Assembly: GCF_008014775.2 (NCBI RefSeq)
Contig: NZ_CP144914.1
Span: 2,976,001 to 3,040,000 of the forward strand
DNA: 64,000 bases
Source: Alkalicoccus halolimnae
Lineage (GTDB): Bacteria; Bacillota; Bacilli; Bacillales; Salisediminibacteriaceae
Direction: 5' to 3'
Below are positions 9,475 to 21,419 of the stretch, one piece after another (position 1 is the first letter of the stretch; each line of letters opens with the position of its first letter). The notes below the pieces were generated by a model that saw nothing but the letters and a program-made list of their open reading frames with translations, did not search any database and had not been told where the DNA came from. Made by a program: the position numbers and the translations under genes.

Positions 9475-10776
9475 TTATGAGGATCGACGCATAAAGCCTG
9501 TATAACGCCGGTCGATCAGCTGACTTTCAATACGCTTCATCGTATCAAGGGCAACACCCACAACGATGAGCAGTCCTGTACCACCGATCTGTACAGAAGG
9601 CGGGAGCCCCGCTGCCTGTCCGAGAATCAACGGTAAAATGGCTACCGTTGCAAGGAACAGGGATCCTACAAACGTCAGACGGTAAAGGAGTTTCACAATG
9701 TAATCCTGGGTTGCTTTACCTGGACGGACTCCTGGAATAAAGCCGTTCTGGCGCTGCAGATTTTGAGCCATCTGCTCCGGATTCATCTGCACAAACGTAT
9801 AGAAATAGGCAAACGCGATAATGAGGATCGCATAAACGAGCATTCCTATCGGATTCGTATAATCAAATGTCTGCACAATCCACGTCGCTATTGGACTGCC
9901 CTCTCCCACGAAGTTTGCTACTGTTGGAGGGAAAATGAACAAGGACATCGCAAAGATTACCGGAATTACGCCTGCCGCGTTGACTTTAATCGGGAGATGG
10001 GACGACTGTCCGCCTGTCGCACGGCCTCCGGCTGCAATCTGCTTTGCGTATTGAACCGGAACTTTGCGCTCCGCCTGCTGCACGTAAATAACGCCGACAA
10101 CAACAGCAAGAATCGCAAGTACAATTAAAGCAACGATAATAATATTCATGAACAGCTGCTCTCCTGCATCAGCAATGTAGATAGAGTAAAGCTGCATGAC
10201 GCCATTTGGTATACCTGCGGCAATACCTGCGAAAATCAGGATGGAAATCCCGTTTCCAACCCCTTTAGCTGTAATTTGCTCACCAAGCCAAAGCAGGAAG
10301 GCTGTACCACCAGTAAGTGTAATGGCAATGATTAAATAAGTTGCTATGGAAGGATCAGGTACAAGACCAGGCATCAGGTTGTTGAACCCGATGGACATGC
10401 CAAGAGCCTGTACAAAAGCGATCCCTACCGTACCATACCGGGTGACCTGGGCAAGCTTTTTTCGTCCAGCGTCTCCTTCACGGGACCACTCCGCAAATTT
10501 TGGAATAACATCCATGCGAAGAAGCTGCACGATAATGGACGCTGTAATATACGGCATAATTCCCGTTGCAAAAATGGAGAAGTTCTCCAGTGCACCACCA
10601 CCGAATTGGTTCAGGAAGCCGAGAGCAGCAAACCCTTCGAAGTCTACCGCATCTGCGTTCACCCCTGGTGCCGGAAGATGGGCACCAATACGGAACACCA
10701 CTAGAATAGAGAGTGTAAACAAAATCTTATTACGCAGATCTCCCGCGCGGAACATCCCTTGTAAAGTATTAAACAT
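9475..10776 (-). CDS. secY: Protein translocase channel subunit SecY, solitary copy
   Basis: Central pore of the Sec translocon (433 aa), a multi-spanning membrane protein. Hallmarks: GGALENFSIFATGIMPYITASIIVQLL, VPKFAEWSREG, GGTAFLLWLGEQIT, GVGNGISI, FVQMNPEQMAQNL, the C5 loop GFIPGVRPG, and a final RYTGFM. The start is the ATG at 10776 after GAGGTGG; the apparent GTG at 10788 overlaps the RBS. In Bacillales secY normally sits in the spc ribosomal-protein operon between rplO and adk. Here it is flanked by fad genes and a thiol oxidoreductase and has its own promoter and terminator. It may therefore be a second SecY or a relocated gene. Length and motifs look like ordinary SecY, not the shorter accessory SecY2 type. 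Confidence 0.93.
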   Translation of the reverse strand: MFNTLQGMFRAGDLRNKILFTLSILVVFRIGAHLPAPGVNADAVDFEGFAALGFLNQFGGGALENFSIFATGIMPYITASIIVQLLRMDVIPKFAEWSREGDAGRKKLAQVTRYGTVGIAFVQALGMSIGFNNLMPGLVPDPSIATYLIIAITLTGGTAFLLWLGEQITAKGVGNGISILIFAGIAAGIPNGVMQLYSIYIADAGEQLFMNIIIVALIVLAILAVVVGVIYVQQAERKVPVQYAKQIAAGGRATGGQSSHLPIKVNAAGVIPVIFAMSLFIFPPTVANFVGEGSPIATWIVQTFDYTNPIGMLVYAILIIAFAYFYTFVQMNPEQMAQNLQRQNGFIPGVRPGKATQDYIVKLLYRLTFVGSLFLATVAILPLILGQAAGLPPSVQIGGTGLLIVVGVALDTMKRIESQLIDRRYTGFMRRSS

Positions 10777-10818
10777 ACAACTATCCACCTCTGTTTCATT
10801 TCAAAAATCTATGATGGA

Positions 10819-11096: not shown

Positions 11097-11684
11097 TTAT
11101 AACGCTTCTTTTAATGCCTGTTCATAAGCTTCCTGAGACTGGAGGCCGGTTAATTTTTTATTACCGATAATAAAAGTTGGAACAGCCTGCACTCCGTCCC
11201 GGTGAGCTGCACGTATCGATTCTTCCCTCGCTTCAGAAAAATGCCTCTCTTCCAGAGCTGTTCTAAAATCCCTGCCGCTGAGTCCTGCCGATTCAGCAAG
11301 TTCCTGAAGTACGGCTGGATTCCCAATGTCTTTACCATCTTCATAAAAAGCACGGAAAACAAGATGGGAATATTCATTTCCTCTATTATATTTTTTGGCG
11401 AAAAGAAGTCCTTCATGGGCAAGATGGGTGTGCGGCTGCGGATCGGTTAAATTTAACCGCATCGTCACATCCAGCTCCTCTGCAAGCGGCATGATCGACT
11501 GGTGCCAGGCCTGCTGGATATAGCTGCTGTGGGGACTGAGAGTTTTCTGCGGATAAGGCCTCAATTCAAAAGGCAGCCACTCTACTTCAGCGTCTTCCCC
11601 TTCCAATGCACGAAATAGCGGAGCCTCCGCTAAATAGCAGAAAGGTCAAACAAAATCACTGTAAATACGGACGGTTACTGTCAT
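11097..11684 (-). CDS. FrnE/DsbA-family thiol oxidoreductase with in-frame TGA at the catalytic Cys: candidate selenoprotein
   Basis: 195 codons read from ATG 11684, which follows AGAAGGAG. Codon 13 is TGA (11648-11646). The surrounding translation is MTVTVRIYSDFV-TGA-PFCYLAE, where family members have FVCPFC: TGA stands exactly at the first cysteine of the CxxC active site. The rest is an intact FrnE-like DsbA domain: VEWLPFELRP, an alpha-helical insertion, HLAHEGLLFAKKY, and near the C-terminus GVQAVPTFIIG, the cis-proline region, then GLQS. No other frame damage is seen. A hairpin follows the TGA (separate entry). TGA is an ordinary stop elsewhere here (for example hprK). I infer UPFC, a selenocysteine enzyme; the alternative is a TGT/TGC-to-TGA nonsense mutation or a base error. 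Without read-through only an inactive fragment beginning at a TTG without RBS could be made. Confidence 0.7.
11616..11632 (-). promoter_or_regulatory. Candidate bacterial SECIS hairpin
   Basis: On the minus strand TAGCGGA GGC TCCGCTA forms a perfect 7-bp stem with a GGC loop. It begins 13 nt after the TGA at 11648-11646; the loop is 20 nt downstream of the TGA. Bacterial SECIS elements lie just 3' of the UGA inside the coding sequence, with a small apical loop carrying G at one of its first two positions. TGC (11658 side) and GCA beyond the stem could add a lower helix. Confidence 0.55.
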
Positions 11685-11749
11685 GAAAATCACTCCTTCT
11701 ATATAGTAGGAGCGTAACAGATTCTTCCCCGTCATGCTTAAAAGAAGAC

Positions 11750-12439: not shown

Positions 12440-13648
12440 TCAGGAGAGCACAGGTGAAGCCGCAAGCTGCTTTCCTTCTTTTAATGTTCCGCTTACAGGA
12501 TAAACAGTTCCACTGACATCAGGGAGATCTTCTCTGGCACATTTTAAAACTGCCGCTTCTTTCCCTTCCAAAAACCTTACCTCCGAAACCAAGTCAGGAA
12601 GGTCCTGTAAATGTTCTCCTGTAATGAACCAATAAGGAAAATTATCCTGCTCTTTCGTTTCTTGTTCCTTTCTCTGTTCCGTATAAGGAGGTTCTGCTTC
12701 CGCCGTATTCGTCCAGTGATTCACTATATCTTCAATTACTGCACTTGCTGTCGGGAACTTCCCGGCTCCTGCACCCTGAAATAACAGCGACCCGACAATG
12801 CTCCCTTTTACGTGGATCCCGTTGTTGACCCCTTCTACTCCATAAAGAGGATGGTCCGCATCGACAAACCGGGGTTCTACGCGTGCTGATGTGCCCTCCA
12901 GGACAGCAGTATGTTTTATACGACCATAAAAAGCAGCTGCCAGATGCAGGTCCCTTACGTCTATTCCGCGGATCCCCCTGGGCTTCTCCTCCGGCCAAAC
13001 CGGCGGCTGTCCATGCAGCCAATGACTGAGGATCACCGTTTTATACCAGGCATCCCACCCATCAACGTCCTTATCAGGAAGCGCCTCTGCATATCCAAGC
13101 CTTTGAGCTTCTTCCAGTGCGTCTTCGAAAGAAGTTCCTTCTTCTCTCATTTTTGTTAATATAAAGTTCGACGTGCCGTTAACAATTCCTTCAATTTTTT
13201 CTACATTGTTAACTTTCAATGTATGGCGGATACTGCTTAATACAGGAATACCCCCGGCTACTGCTGCTTCAAAATAGAGACGGCAGTCATTTTCTGCAGC
13301 CAGATGGAGCAGTTCTTCCCCGTATTTAGCAATAAGCTCTTTGTTGGCTGTCACTACGGTGATTCCCTTTTCGAGAAGCTTCTTTACGATTGGATACGCC
13401 GTTAAAGCATCCGGTACAGCTTCCACTGCCGTATCAATCTCTTCTTTATAAAGAGTTTCTATATCTTCTGAAATTTTCGTGCCTGATTCTGTTGTTCTGG
13501 ATTTTTTTCCATCTTTTACGACAATAAGCGGTATAGTAAACCCGCCGACCAGTTTCTCCACTTTTTCCCTGTTTTCTTCAAGCGCTTCGTACACGCCGCT
13601 CCCTACTGTCCCATATCCGACAATTGCTAACCGCTTAGCTCTGCTCAT
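12440..13648 (-). CDS. hom: Homoserine dehydrogenase, form without a recognisable ACT domain
   Basis: NAD(P)-dependent reduction of aspartate semialdehyde to homoserine, the branch point to methionine and threonine (402 aa). The N-terminal nucleotide-binding motif is IVGYGTVGSGV; the catalytic-domain stretches are VTANKELIAKYG, YFEAAVAGGIPVLSSIRH, IEGIVNGTSNFILTKM and PDKDVDGWDAWYKTVIL. B. subtilis Hom is about 30 residues longer and ends in an ACT domain for threonine feedback; here the C-terminal 80 residues do not look like ACT. The start ATG at 13648 follows GGGAGAG. There is no thrC or thrB next to it. A SAM-I riboswitch upstream suggests it serves methionine synthesis. Confidence 0.92.
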   Translation of the reverse strand: MSRAKRLAIVGYGTVGSGVYEALEENREKVEKLVGGFTIPLIVVKDGKKSRTTESGTKISEDIETLYKEEIDTAVEAVPDALTAYPIVKKLLEKGITVVTANKELIAKYGEELLHLAAENDCRLYFEAAVAGGIPVLSSIRHTLKVNNVEKIEGIVNGTSNFILTKMREEGTSFEDALEEAQRLGYAEALPDKDVDGWDAWYKTVILSHWLHGQPPVWPEEKPRGIRGIDVRDLHLAAAFYGRIKHTAVLEGTSARVEPRFVDADHPLYGVEGVNNGIHVKGSIVGSLLFQGAGAGKFPTASAVIEDIVNHWTNTAEAEPPYTEQRKEQETKEQDNFPYWFITGEHLQDLPDLVSEVRFLEGKEAAVLKCAREDLPDVSGTVYPVSGTLKEGKQLAASPVLS

Positions 13649-13740: not shown

Positions 13741-13850
13741 CCCTTATCTTTCAGAATTAACATTCTGCAGGATTTGGCACCTTCCAGGTTGTTCCTGGTG
13801 GTTGCCGGGTTTCATCGGGCCAGTCCCTCCGCCGCTCTTGATAAGAGAAG
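13741..13850 (-). promoter_or_regulatory. SAM-I (S-box) riboswitch of hom
   Basis: Minus strand: CTTATCAAGAG, then GGAGGGA, CCGATGAAACCCGGCAACC, a P3 hairpin, AAGGTGCCAAATCCTGC, and GATAAGGG closing P1 against CTTATC. A strong terminator follows. It predicts shut-off of hom when SAM is plentiful. Confidence 0.94.
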
Positions 13851-21027: not shown

Positions 21028-21058
21028 TAAAAAAACCACCATAGCATATGTATGGTGG
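21028..21058 (-). terminator. Terminator of ssrA
   Basis: Minus-strand CCACCATA CATATGC TATGGTGG followed by TTTTTTTA, overlapping the tmRNA 3' CCA end. Confidence 0.85.
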
Positions 21059-21419
21059 AGACGGCGGGAATCGAACCCGCGTCCAGGGATAACGTGCCTT
21101 ACGCTTCTACGAGCGTAGTCAGCTTATTATAATTCGCCGATACGTCAGCCAACTGACAGGCTTCCGTATGGCTAACCTGATTAATCTCTTCAGAGCTTCC
21201 TCAGGTGGAGGAACCTCTGCGTATCCCACTTAGAGTGAGTCCCTGAATCCTCCACATGGGCGATGGAGGGAGGAACCGCAAGCAGGGTTGTTACGCCGCT
21301 GCTAGTGCGAAGTTATCTTCTTGTTTGCCAACTATAGGCGTGTGAGCGTTTTTACGAGGACACTCAGCTCGACTCGCCACGTAAGGCCGACCTATCCCTG
21401 TCGAATCCAGAACGTCCCC
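21053..21419 (-). ncRNA. ssrA: tmRNA
   Basis: One-piece transfer-messenger RNA that rescues stalled ribosomes. The 5' end reads GGGGACGTTCTGGATTCGACAGGG and the 3' end GGTTCGATTCCCGCCGTCTCCACCA, forming the alanine-tRNA-like domain. The tag frame (21329-21291 on the minus strand) encodes GKQEDNFALAAA and stop; with the charged alanine the tag is A-GKQEDNFALAAA. smpB lies just upstream on the same strand, as in other Bacilli. Size about 367 nt is normal. Confidence 0.95.

Follow-up and report, generated by a model that had tools for sequence, protein, structure and literature searches.

We find that a gene in a 64,000-nucleotide stretch of the Alkalicoccus halolimnae genome (hereafter the window) very probably encodes a FrnE-type thiol/disulfide oxidoreductase of the DsbA family, in which an in-frame UGA at codon 13 would be read as selenocysteine (Sec) to give the active site Sec13-Pro-Phe-Cys16. 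The gene (11097..11684, reverse strand, as are all window features below) has 195 codons. It runs from an ATG start (11684-11682), preceded by a ribosome-binding site read directly in the sequence (AGAAGGAG, 11693..11700), to a TAA stop (11099-11097). Its sole internal stop is the TGA of codon 13 (11646..11648), which lies within SDFV-U-PFC-YLAE, aligns with the N-terminal Cys of CPFC and is interpreted here as a selenocysteine codon. The second redox residue of UPFC, placed by translation and alignment, is encoded by the TGC of codon 16 (11637..11639) and is the only Cys in the readthrough protein, which begins MTVTVRIYSDFV-U-PFC-YLAEAP.... The initial annotation of this DNA had described the start, the ribosome-binding site, the length of the frame and its lone TGA, and its coordinates and description proved exact.

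The assignment to a FrnE/DsbA-like family, also made at that stage, holds at the level of domain, nearest structure and fold. Residues 4-192 match the Pfam DSBA domain PF01323 (E 7e-32; 111.2 bits against a gathering score of 25.6), and UPFC has the UxxC form required of DsbA-like (PF01323) selenoproteins. The nearest solved relative is FrnE of Deinococcus radiodurans, a name that COG2761 also bears: it ranked first by sequence in the PDB (E 1.7e-14), and its structure 5co3 was the top Foldseek match (TM 0.84) for an AlphaFold2 model computed from a 36-row alignment (mean pLDDT 97.7, pTM 0.93). In this model the first strand starts at residue 3, and residue 13 directly precedes a helix formed by residues 14-18. 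The alignment also has an invariant V168-P169 (codon of Pro169, 11178..11180), which we take to be the cis-Pro loop of the thioredoxin fold. Since no signal peptide was seen by eye in the readthrough protein ahead of the first strand, the enzyme is probably cytoplasmic. None of the NCBIfam models scored above its cut-off for the readthrough protein; the (seleno)lipoprotein model NF041057 (DsbG-like in PMC13188914) was considered and rejected at 35.8 bits, far under its curated cut-off of 190. A close Cys paralogue serving as a backup was rejected as well, because the one other DSBA-domain match in the genome fits Thioredoxin_5 (PF13743) better, so that no close Cys twin was found in the genome.

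Relatives of the gene carry either TGA or a Cys codon at codon 13. The nearest named ones come from Alkalicoccus (five loci, 69-74% identity, one of them, L021, titled Bacillus sp.) and Salipaludibacillus (62-63%), and these 7 loci all have TGA at this position. TGT or TGC is found in the other 73 of the 80 loci kept from 499 relatives, although 7:73 is not an unbiased ratio because one of the six patterns behind the 80-locus set was a Cys-containing peptide. Whole-genome searches returned a match with exactly one TGA in each of the 7 other genomes of the genus. Across the order, 70 of 299 genomes (A. halolimnae included) gave 75 matches at E <= 1e-25, of which 30 had TGA, 44 were stop-free (a part of these was fetched) and one was a fragment with two TAA codons. 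When the order set was taken together with a set of 60 genomes that includes A. halolimnae, each of the 47 TGA-bearing matches, the window gene among them, carried a TGA at codon 13, with Cys following at codon 16; like the alignment with the Cys homologues, this agrees with the original proposal that the TGA stands at the first Cys of CPFC. Outside the order, 22 of 398 genomes of the same phylum matched at E 1e-15; nine of these matches list TGA, and the five examined all have it at codon 13.

These data bear directly on the best of the competing explanations, namely a pseudogene whose TGA arose by nonsense mutation, or a sequencing error in which TGT or TGC was miscalled. A single base indeed separates TGA from either Cys codon, and genuine decay does occur in one duplicate of a related gene, locus L128 (G053:C28:231053-231634), where a second TGA takes the place of a Trp codon and a Pro near the cis-Pro loop is lost. 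The same two features led us to reject this second G053 copy as a UxxU double-Sec variant. However, L128 is the one exception among the 47 TGA-bearing matches, the aligned stretch being free of further stops in the other 46, and TGA falls at exactly codon 13 in 7/7 other genomes of the genus and in 39 further matches from the order. The frame of the window gene is otherwise intact, and a dN/dS of 0.087, from the one computable pair of nine (dS was saturated in the other eight), suggests purifying selection; the codons that form the RNA stem described below are invariant. We thus consider a pseudogene or sequencing error very improbable. Random decay in related strains, which the initial annotation had named as grounds for refutation, was seen in L128 only.

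The genome, a single contig of 3.69 Mb, has the machinery to read UGA as selenocysteine. The earlier remark on the absence of sel genes was made for the window and holds there alone; in the genome, the suggested search found selA, selB, selC and selD, all about 1 Mb away and clustered within about 5.4 kb (C1:1968244-1973608). The cluster includes selA (PF03841, E 2.9e-133), selD (TIGR00476, 406 bits), selB (TIGR00475, 377.9 bits against a cut-off of 242.25, with the SelB winged-helix domain also matched) and tRNA-Sec with anticodon TCA (selC; 61.1 bits against an Rfam cut-off of 47). Two genes at C1:1969891-1971288 are themselves likely selenoprotein genes by their translations: a SelW/Rdx-like gene of 75 residues with the motif CMQU (PF10262, E 7e-21; locus L017, 7891-8118, reverse strand), and selD, which has an in-frame TGA at residue 21 in AG-U-GCK (L017, 8218-9288, forward strand). 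The cell is thus equipped to make and insert selenocysteine and probably uses it in at least two other proteins.

Among relatives, selB follows the TGA. In the 69 genomes of the order with a match (A. halolimnae excluded), selB was over the cut-off in 28/28 genomes with TGA and in 10/41 of the others (Fisher p 3.5e-11, not corrected for kinship). In the 60-genome set, A. halolimnae included, the figures were 26 of 27 TGA-bearing genomes and 17 of 33 others, and the one TGA-bearing genome without selB over the cut-off, G034, is 76% complete with 6% contamination. TGA-bearing homologues thus occur in other Sec-using genomes, as is asked of a bacterial selenoprotein.

Just beyond codon 13 the mRNA can fold into a SECIS-type hairpin absent from the initial annotation, UAGCGGA-GGC-UCCGCUA (11616..11632), the sequence from the UGA onward being UGACCUUUCUGCUAUU-UAGCGGA-GGC-UCCGCUA. 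A published bacterial SECIS model has an upper stem of 4-16 bp, a loop of 3-9 nt with G in the first two positions, a spacing of 16-37 nt from the UGA and a minimum free energy (MFE) of -7.5 kcal/mol or lower (PMC13188914). The window hairpin conforms to it, with 7 bp, the 3-nt loop GGC, an apical loop 20 nt after the UGA and -8.5 kcal/mol when the perfect stem is scored. The SelW-like gene and selD resemble the window gene in that their in-frame TGA precedes a hairpin whose small loop begins with G (-10.8 kcal/mol after the selD TGA; -6.5 after that of the SelW-like gene, short of the published -7.5), and differ from it in belonging to other protein families.

Taken singly, the window hairpin is not unusual in energy against dinucleotide shuffles (z -1.19 for 46 nt, -1.35 for 34 nt and -1.02 for 69 nt), and the 69-nt stretch prefers an alternative fold. 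We discarded the energy z-score as evidence, since it is not significant for single sequences, and the case for the hairpin hence rests on comparing TGA with Cys genes. Within subfamily A, defined by at least 40% identity to the query and with identical 96-nt segments counted once, a model-conforming hairpin of -5 kcal/mol or lower was present in 32/32 TGA genes against 6/36 Cys genes, the latter including by the identity cut a high-GC row (L048, 40% identity) that may not belong there. At -7.5 kcal/mol or lower, with the perfect stem alone scored, the counts were 13/32 and 2/36, and 69 more distant Cys genes gave 8 hairpins at the first threshold and none at the second. When the stem positions are fixed, TGA genes form 92% of the pairs and Cys genes 50%; a shift of one arm by 1-3 bases lowers the pairing of TGA genes to 34-54%.

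Codon choice in the stem points the same way. The stem codons GCG, GAG and CCG are invariant in 31/31 subfamily-A TGA genes (31 instead of 32 because L128 was dropped from this count), against a background in these genes of 0.19 of Ala, 0.28 of Glu and 0.29 of Pro codons, respectively; at the stem positions of Cys genes they occur in 2/36, 9/36 and 17/36. In 31/31 Sec genes residue 21 has an NYT codon and is Ala, Val, Phe or Ser, whereas 30/36 Cys homologues have Lys, Gln, Glu or Thr there. Because Sec and Cys genes differ there, the RNA signal appears to dictate this protein residue as well.

Still less probable than a pseudogene is that the TGA is a real stop, with re-initiation at TTG 11606 yielding a 169-residue protein that lacks the active site. 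A mechanical ORF call does begin at this TTG, and 25/57 homologues in the protein database start after the Sec site, among them the window's own entry (P0002). However, relatives conserve the protein sequence of the first 12 codons together with their start, and a ribosome-binding site precedes the ATG. The truncated entries, moreover, start variably, at query residues 18, 27, 33, 34, 37, 75 and 79, as is expected of gene callers skipping a stop. Five of them are tied to TGA genes (P0004/L021, P0006/L022, P0010/L024, P0038/L019 and P0057/L163), and some others may be contig-end fragments. Loss of strand 1 together with the active site would presumably leave an inactive thioredoxin fold.

The suggestion that a near-cognate tRNA reads UGA-13 as Trp or Cys, for which one may count the low-level UGA readthrough that happens in bacteria and a Trp (VWPFC) at the Sec/Cys place of database homologue P0050, seems to us hardly credible given that codon 13 aligns with Cys in the Cys homologues examined, that a dedicated tRNA-Sec and SelB are present with selB co-occurring with the TGA, and that the hairpin accompanies TGA genes. 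The Trp of P0050 is possibly a TGA rendered as Trp by the source of that entry.

Decoding of UGA-13 as selenocysteine, as the initial annotation had it, is thus supported by the Sec machinery, the conserved TGA and the hairpin that accompanies TGA genes. SelB carrying Sec-tRNA-Sec would bind the hairpin right after UGA-13, and selenocysteine would be inserted in place of release-factor termination. Sec13, at the N-terminus of the active-site helix, could then attack disulfides as a selenolate, and Cys16 would resolve the mixed selenenylsulfide. All of these steps, Sec insertion included, are inferred. By analogy with FrnE and Lmo1059, for which such activity is reported, the enzyme probably works as a reductase or isomerase; since it lacks a C-terminal CXXXXC, its electrons may come directly from a small thiol or thioredoxin.

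Besides subfamily A, the 47 TGA-bearing matches include two more distant groups. Subfamily B (4 of 47; 31-36% identity; FLUPFC) possibly corresponds to the Clostridia group of earlier descriptions, and similar sequences (L185-L187) occur beyond the order. Its hairpins are the weakest of the three subtypes; the best that conform to the model reach -4.6 to -6.7 kcal/mol (0/4 at -7.5), with the loop 30-34 nt after the UGA. An A-type stem at the A-type position was rejected for subfamily B, since only 2-3 of 7 pairs form in the four genes. Subfamily C (11 of 47; 23-30% identity; mostly FAUPFC) has the hairpin GCGUC-UGGAG-GACGC with its loop 29 nt after the UGA, at -7.5 kcal/mol or lower in 8/11 genes, and in 2/11 a G-C pair of the stem has changed to A-U on both sides. 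Among 16 Cys relatives of subfamily C, restricted to rows that contain YIGK, no gene exceeds 4 of the 6 stem pairs. We give about even odds to the view that each of the three Sec subtypes has a candidate SECIS hairpin of its own, set at its own distance from codon 13. In one genome (L169, G206:C6:17200-20500) about 100 bases separate a subfamily-A Cys copy from a subfamily-B Sec copy, both encoded on the same strand.

The distribution of Sec and Cys among these proteins suggests exchange. A quick tree search on 93 proteins, for which the motif region was masked and far named Cys rows were left out, requires 10 changes of the Sec label, 8 of them within subfamily A, and the well-supported branches force at least 3. 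Genus g53 is mixed: Sec occurs in 3 genomes and Cys in 5, and selB is present in 8/8. Over 196 residues the Cys protein of G146 matches a Fictibacillus phosphorivorans entry without a difference; the G146 gene (L142) keeps a near-intact hairpin, UAGCGGA-AGC-UCCGCUA, and the same-genus loci L144, L145 and L146 have Sec. Judged from these sequences, the G146 hairpin reads as the fossil of a recent Sec-to-Cys change. Whether Sec and Cys swap repeatedly at one catalytic position in the FrnE-type proteins of Bacillales we would call a balanced question on this evidence. Such close Sec/Cys pairs within one genus make the question of why a cell should pay for selenium at one residue directly testable.

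Next to the selenoprotein gene, at 9475-10788, is a lone secY, the only complete copy found in the genome. At the spc-operon position, flanked by rplO and adk (both named by eye), only a decayed, stop-containing secY fragment was found (L183, 4593-5488; C1:153592-154487); an extra copy has apparently replaced the secY of the operon. Two complete secY genes are listed by 24 of the 35 genomes of the family, and one by 11. Within the genus, G002 and G003 have two, G000 and G004 one plus remnant pieces, and G001, G005, G006 and G007 one, G005 and G007 being 80% complete. The window also has ordinary RNA elements: SAM riboswitches at 13741-13847 and 818-925, one of which precedes a homoserine dehydrogenase-like gene (12440-13648, named by eye), and tmRNA at 21053-21419.

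Selenium enzymes of the DsbA-like UxxC kind are already known, and the window gene, as we read it, joins them. The initial annotation had noted that DsbA-like Sec proteins exist in bacteria, and UxxC members were indeed published in 2005 from the Sargasso Sea (9 sequences, COG2761; PMC1088965). In the parts of the later sources that we cite, a 2006 bacterial survey has 4 DsbA-like sequences and tabulates 3 selenoproteins of 3 families in Bacillales (PMC1794560), GOS data hold DsbA 1, 2 and 3 selenoproteins (PMC2398784), a 2016 table gives 41 and 45 for DsbA-like, apparently organisms and sequences (PMC5029168), and a 2026 review defines DsbA-like form 1 by PF01323 and UxxC (PMC13188914). The main text of that review mentions neither FrnE nor Bacillales, and among the titles and abstract openings of the open-licence papers that our searches returned we found no description of a Sec FrnE-type subfamily of Bacillales. 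The present analysis adds to Bacillales a conserved selenoprotein subfamily whose database entries are truncated and lack the active site. Specialists may find three things new: the subfamily itself, whose hairpin core is invariant; the different subtypes of hairpin; and the exchange of Sec and Cys inside a single genus.

Compared with known systems, the window gene shares with the DsbA-like UxxC family the PF01323 domain, one Sec in UxxC, a downstream bacterial SECIS and widespread Cys homologues. In the published accounts cited, however, that family comes from marine metagenomes, Deltaproteobacteria and Clostridia, whereas the window subfamily is from Bacillales and has its own hairpin sequence; the likeness to DsbA-like form 1, whose representative is NIP15863.1, is one of domain and motif. 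D. radiodurans FrnE (DR_0659; PDB 5cnw, 5co3, 5xwh) shares a CPxC-type motif and the DsbA family, but has Cys where the window protein would have Sec. It also has a C-terminal CXXXXC whose proposed role is regeneration of the active site (PMC8945050). This motif, found in many FrnE members and not strictly defining, is absent from the window translation, whose only Cys is Cys16. According to the same source, FrnE of S. roseofulvus also lacks it, and FrnE proteins are predicted to be cytoplasmic (PMC8945050). Likened by its description, Lmo1059 of Listeria monocytogenes shares a CPFC-type motif, the DsbA family and a Bacillales host, and has strong GSSG and weak insulin reductase activity; it, too, has Cys in place of the predicted Sec of the window protein (PMC10715225).
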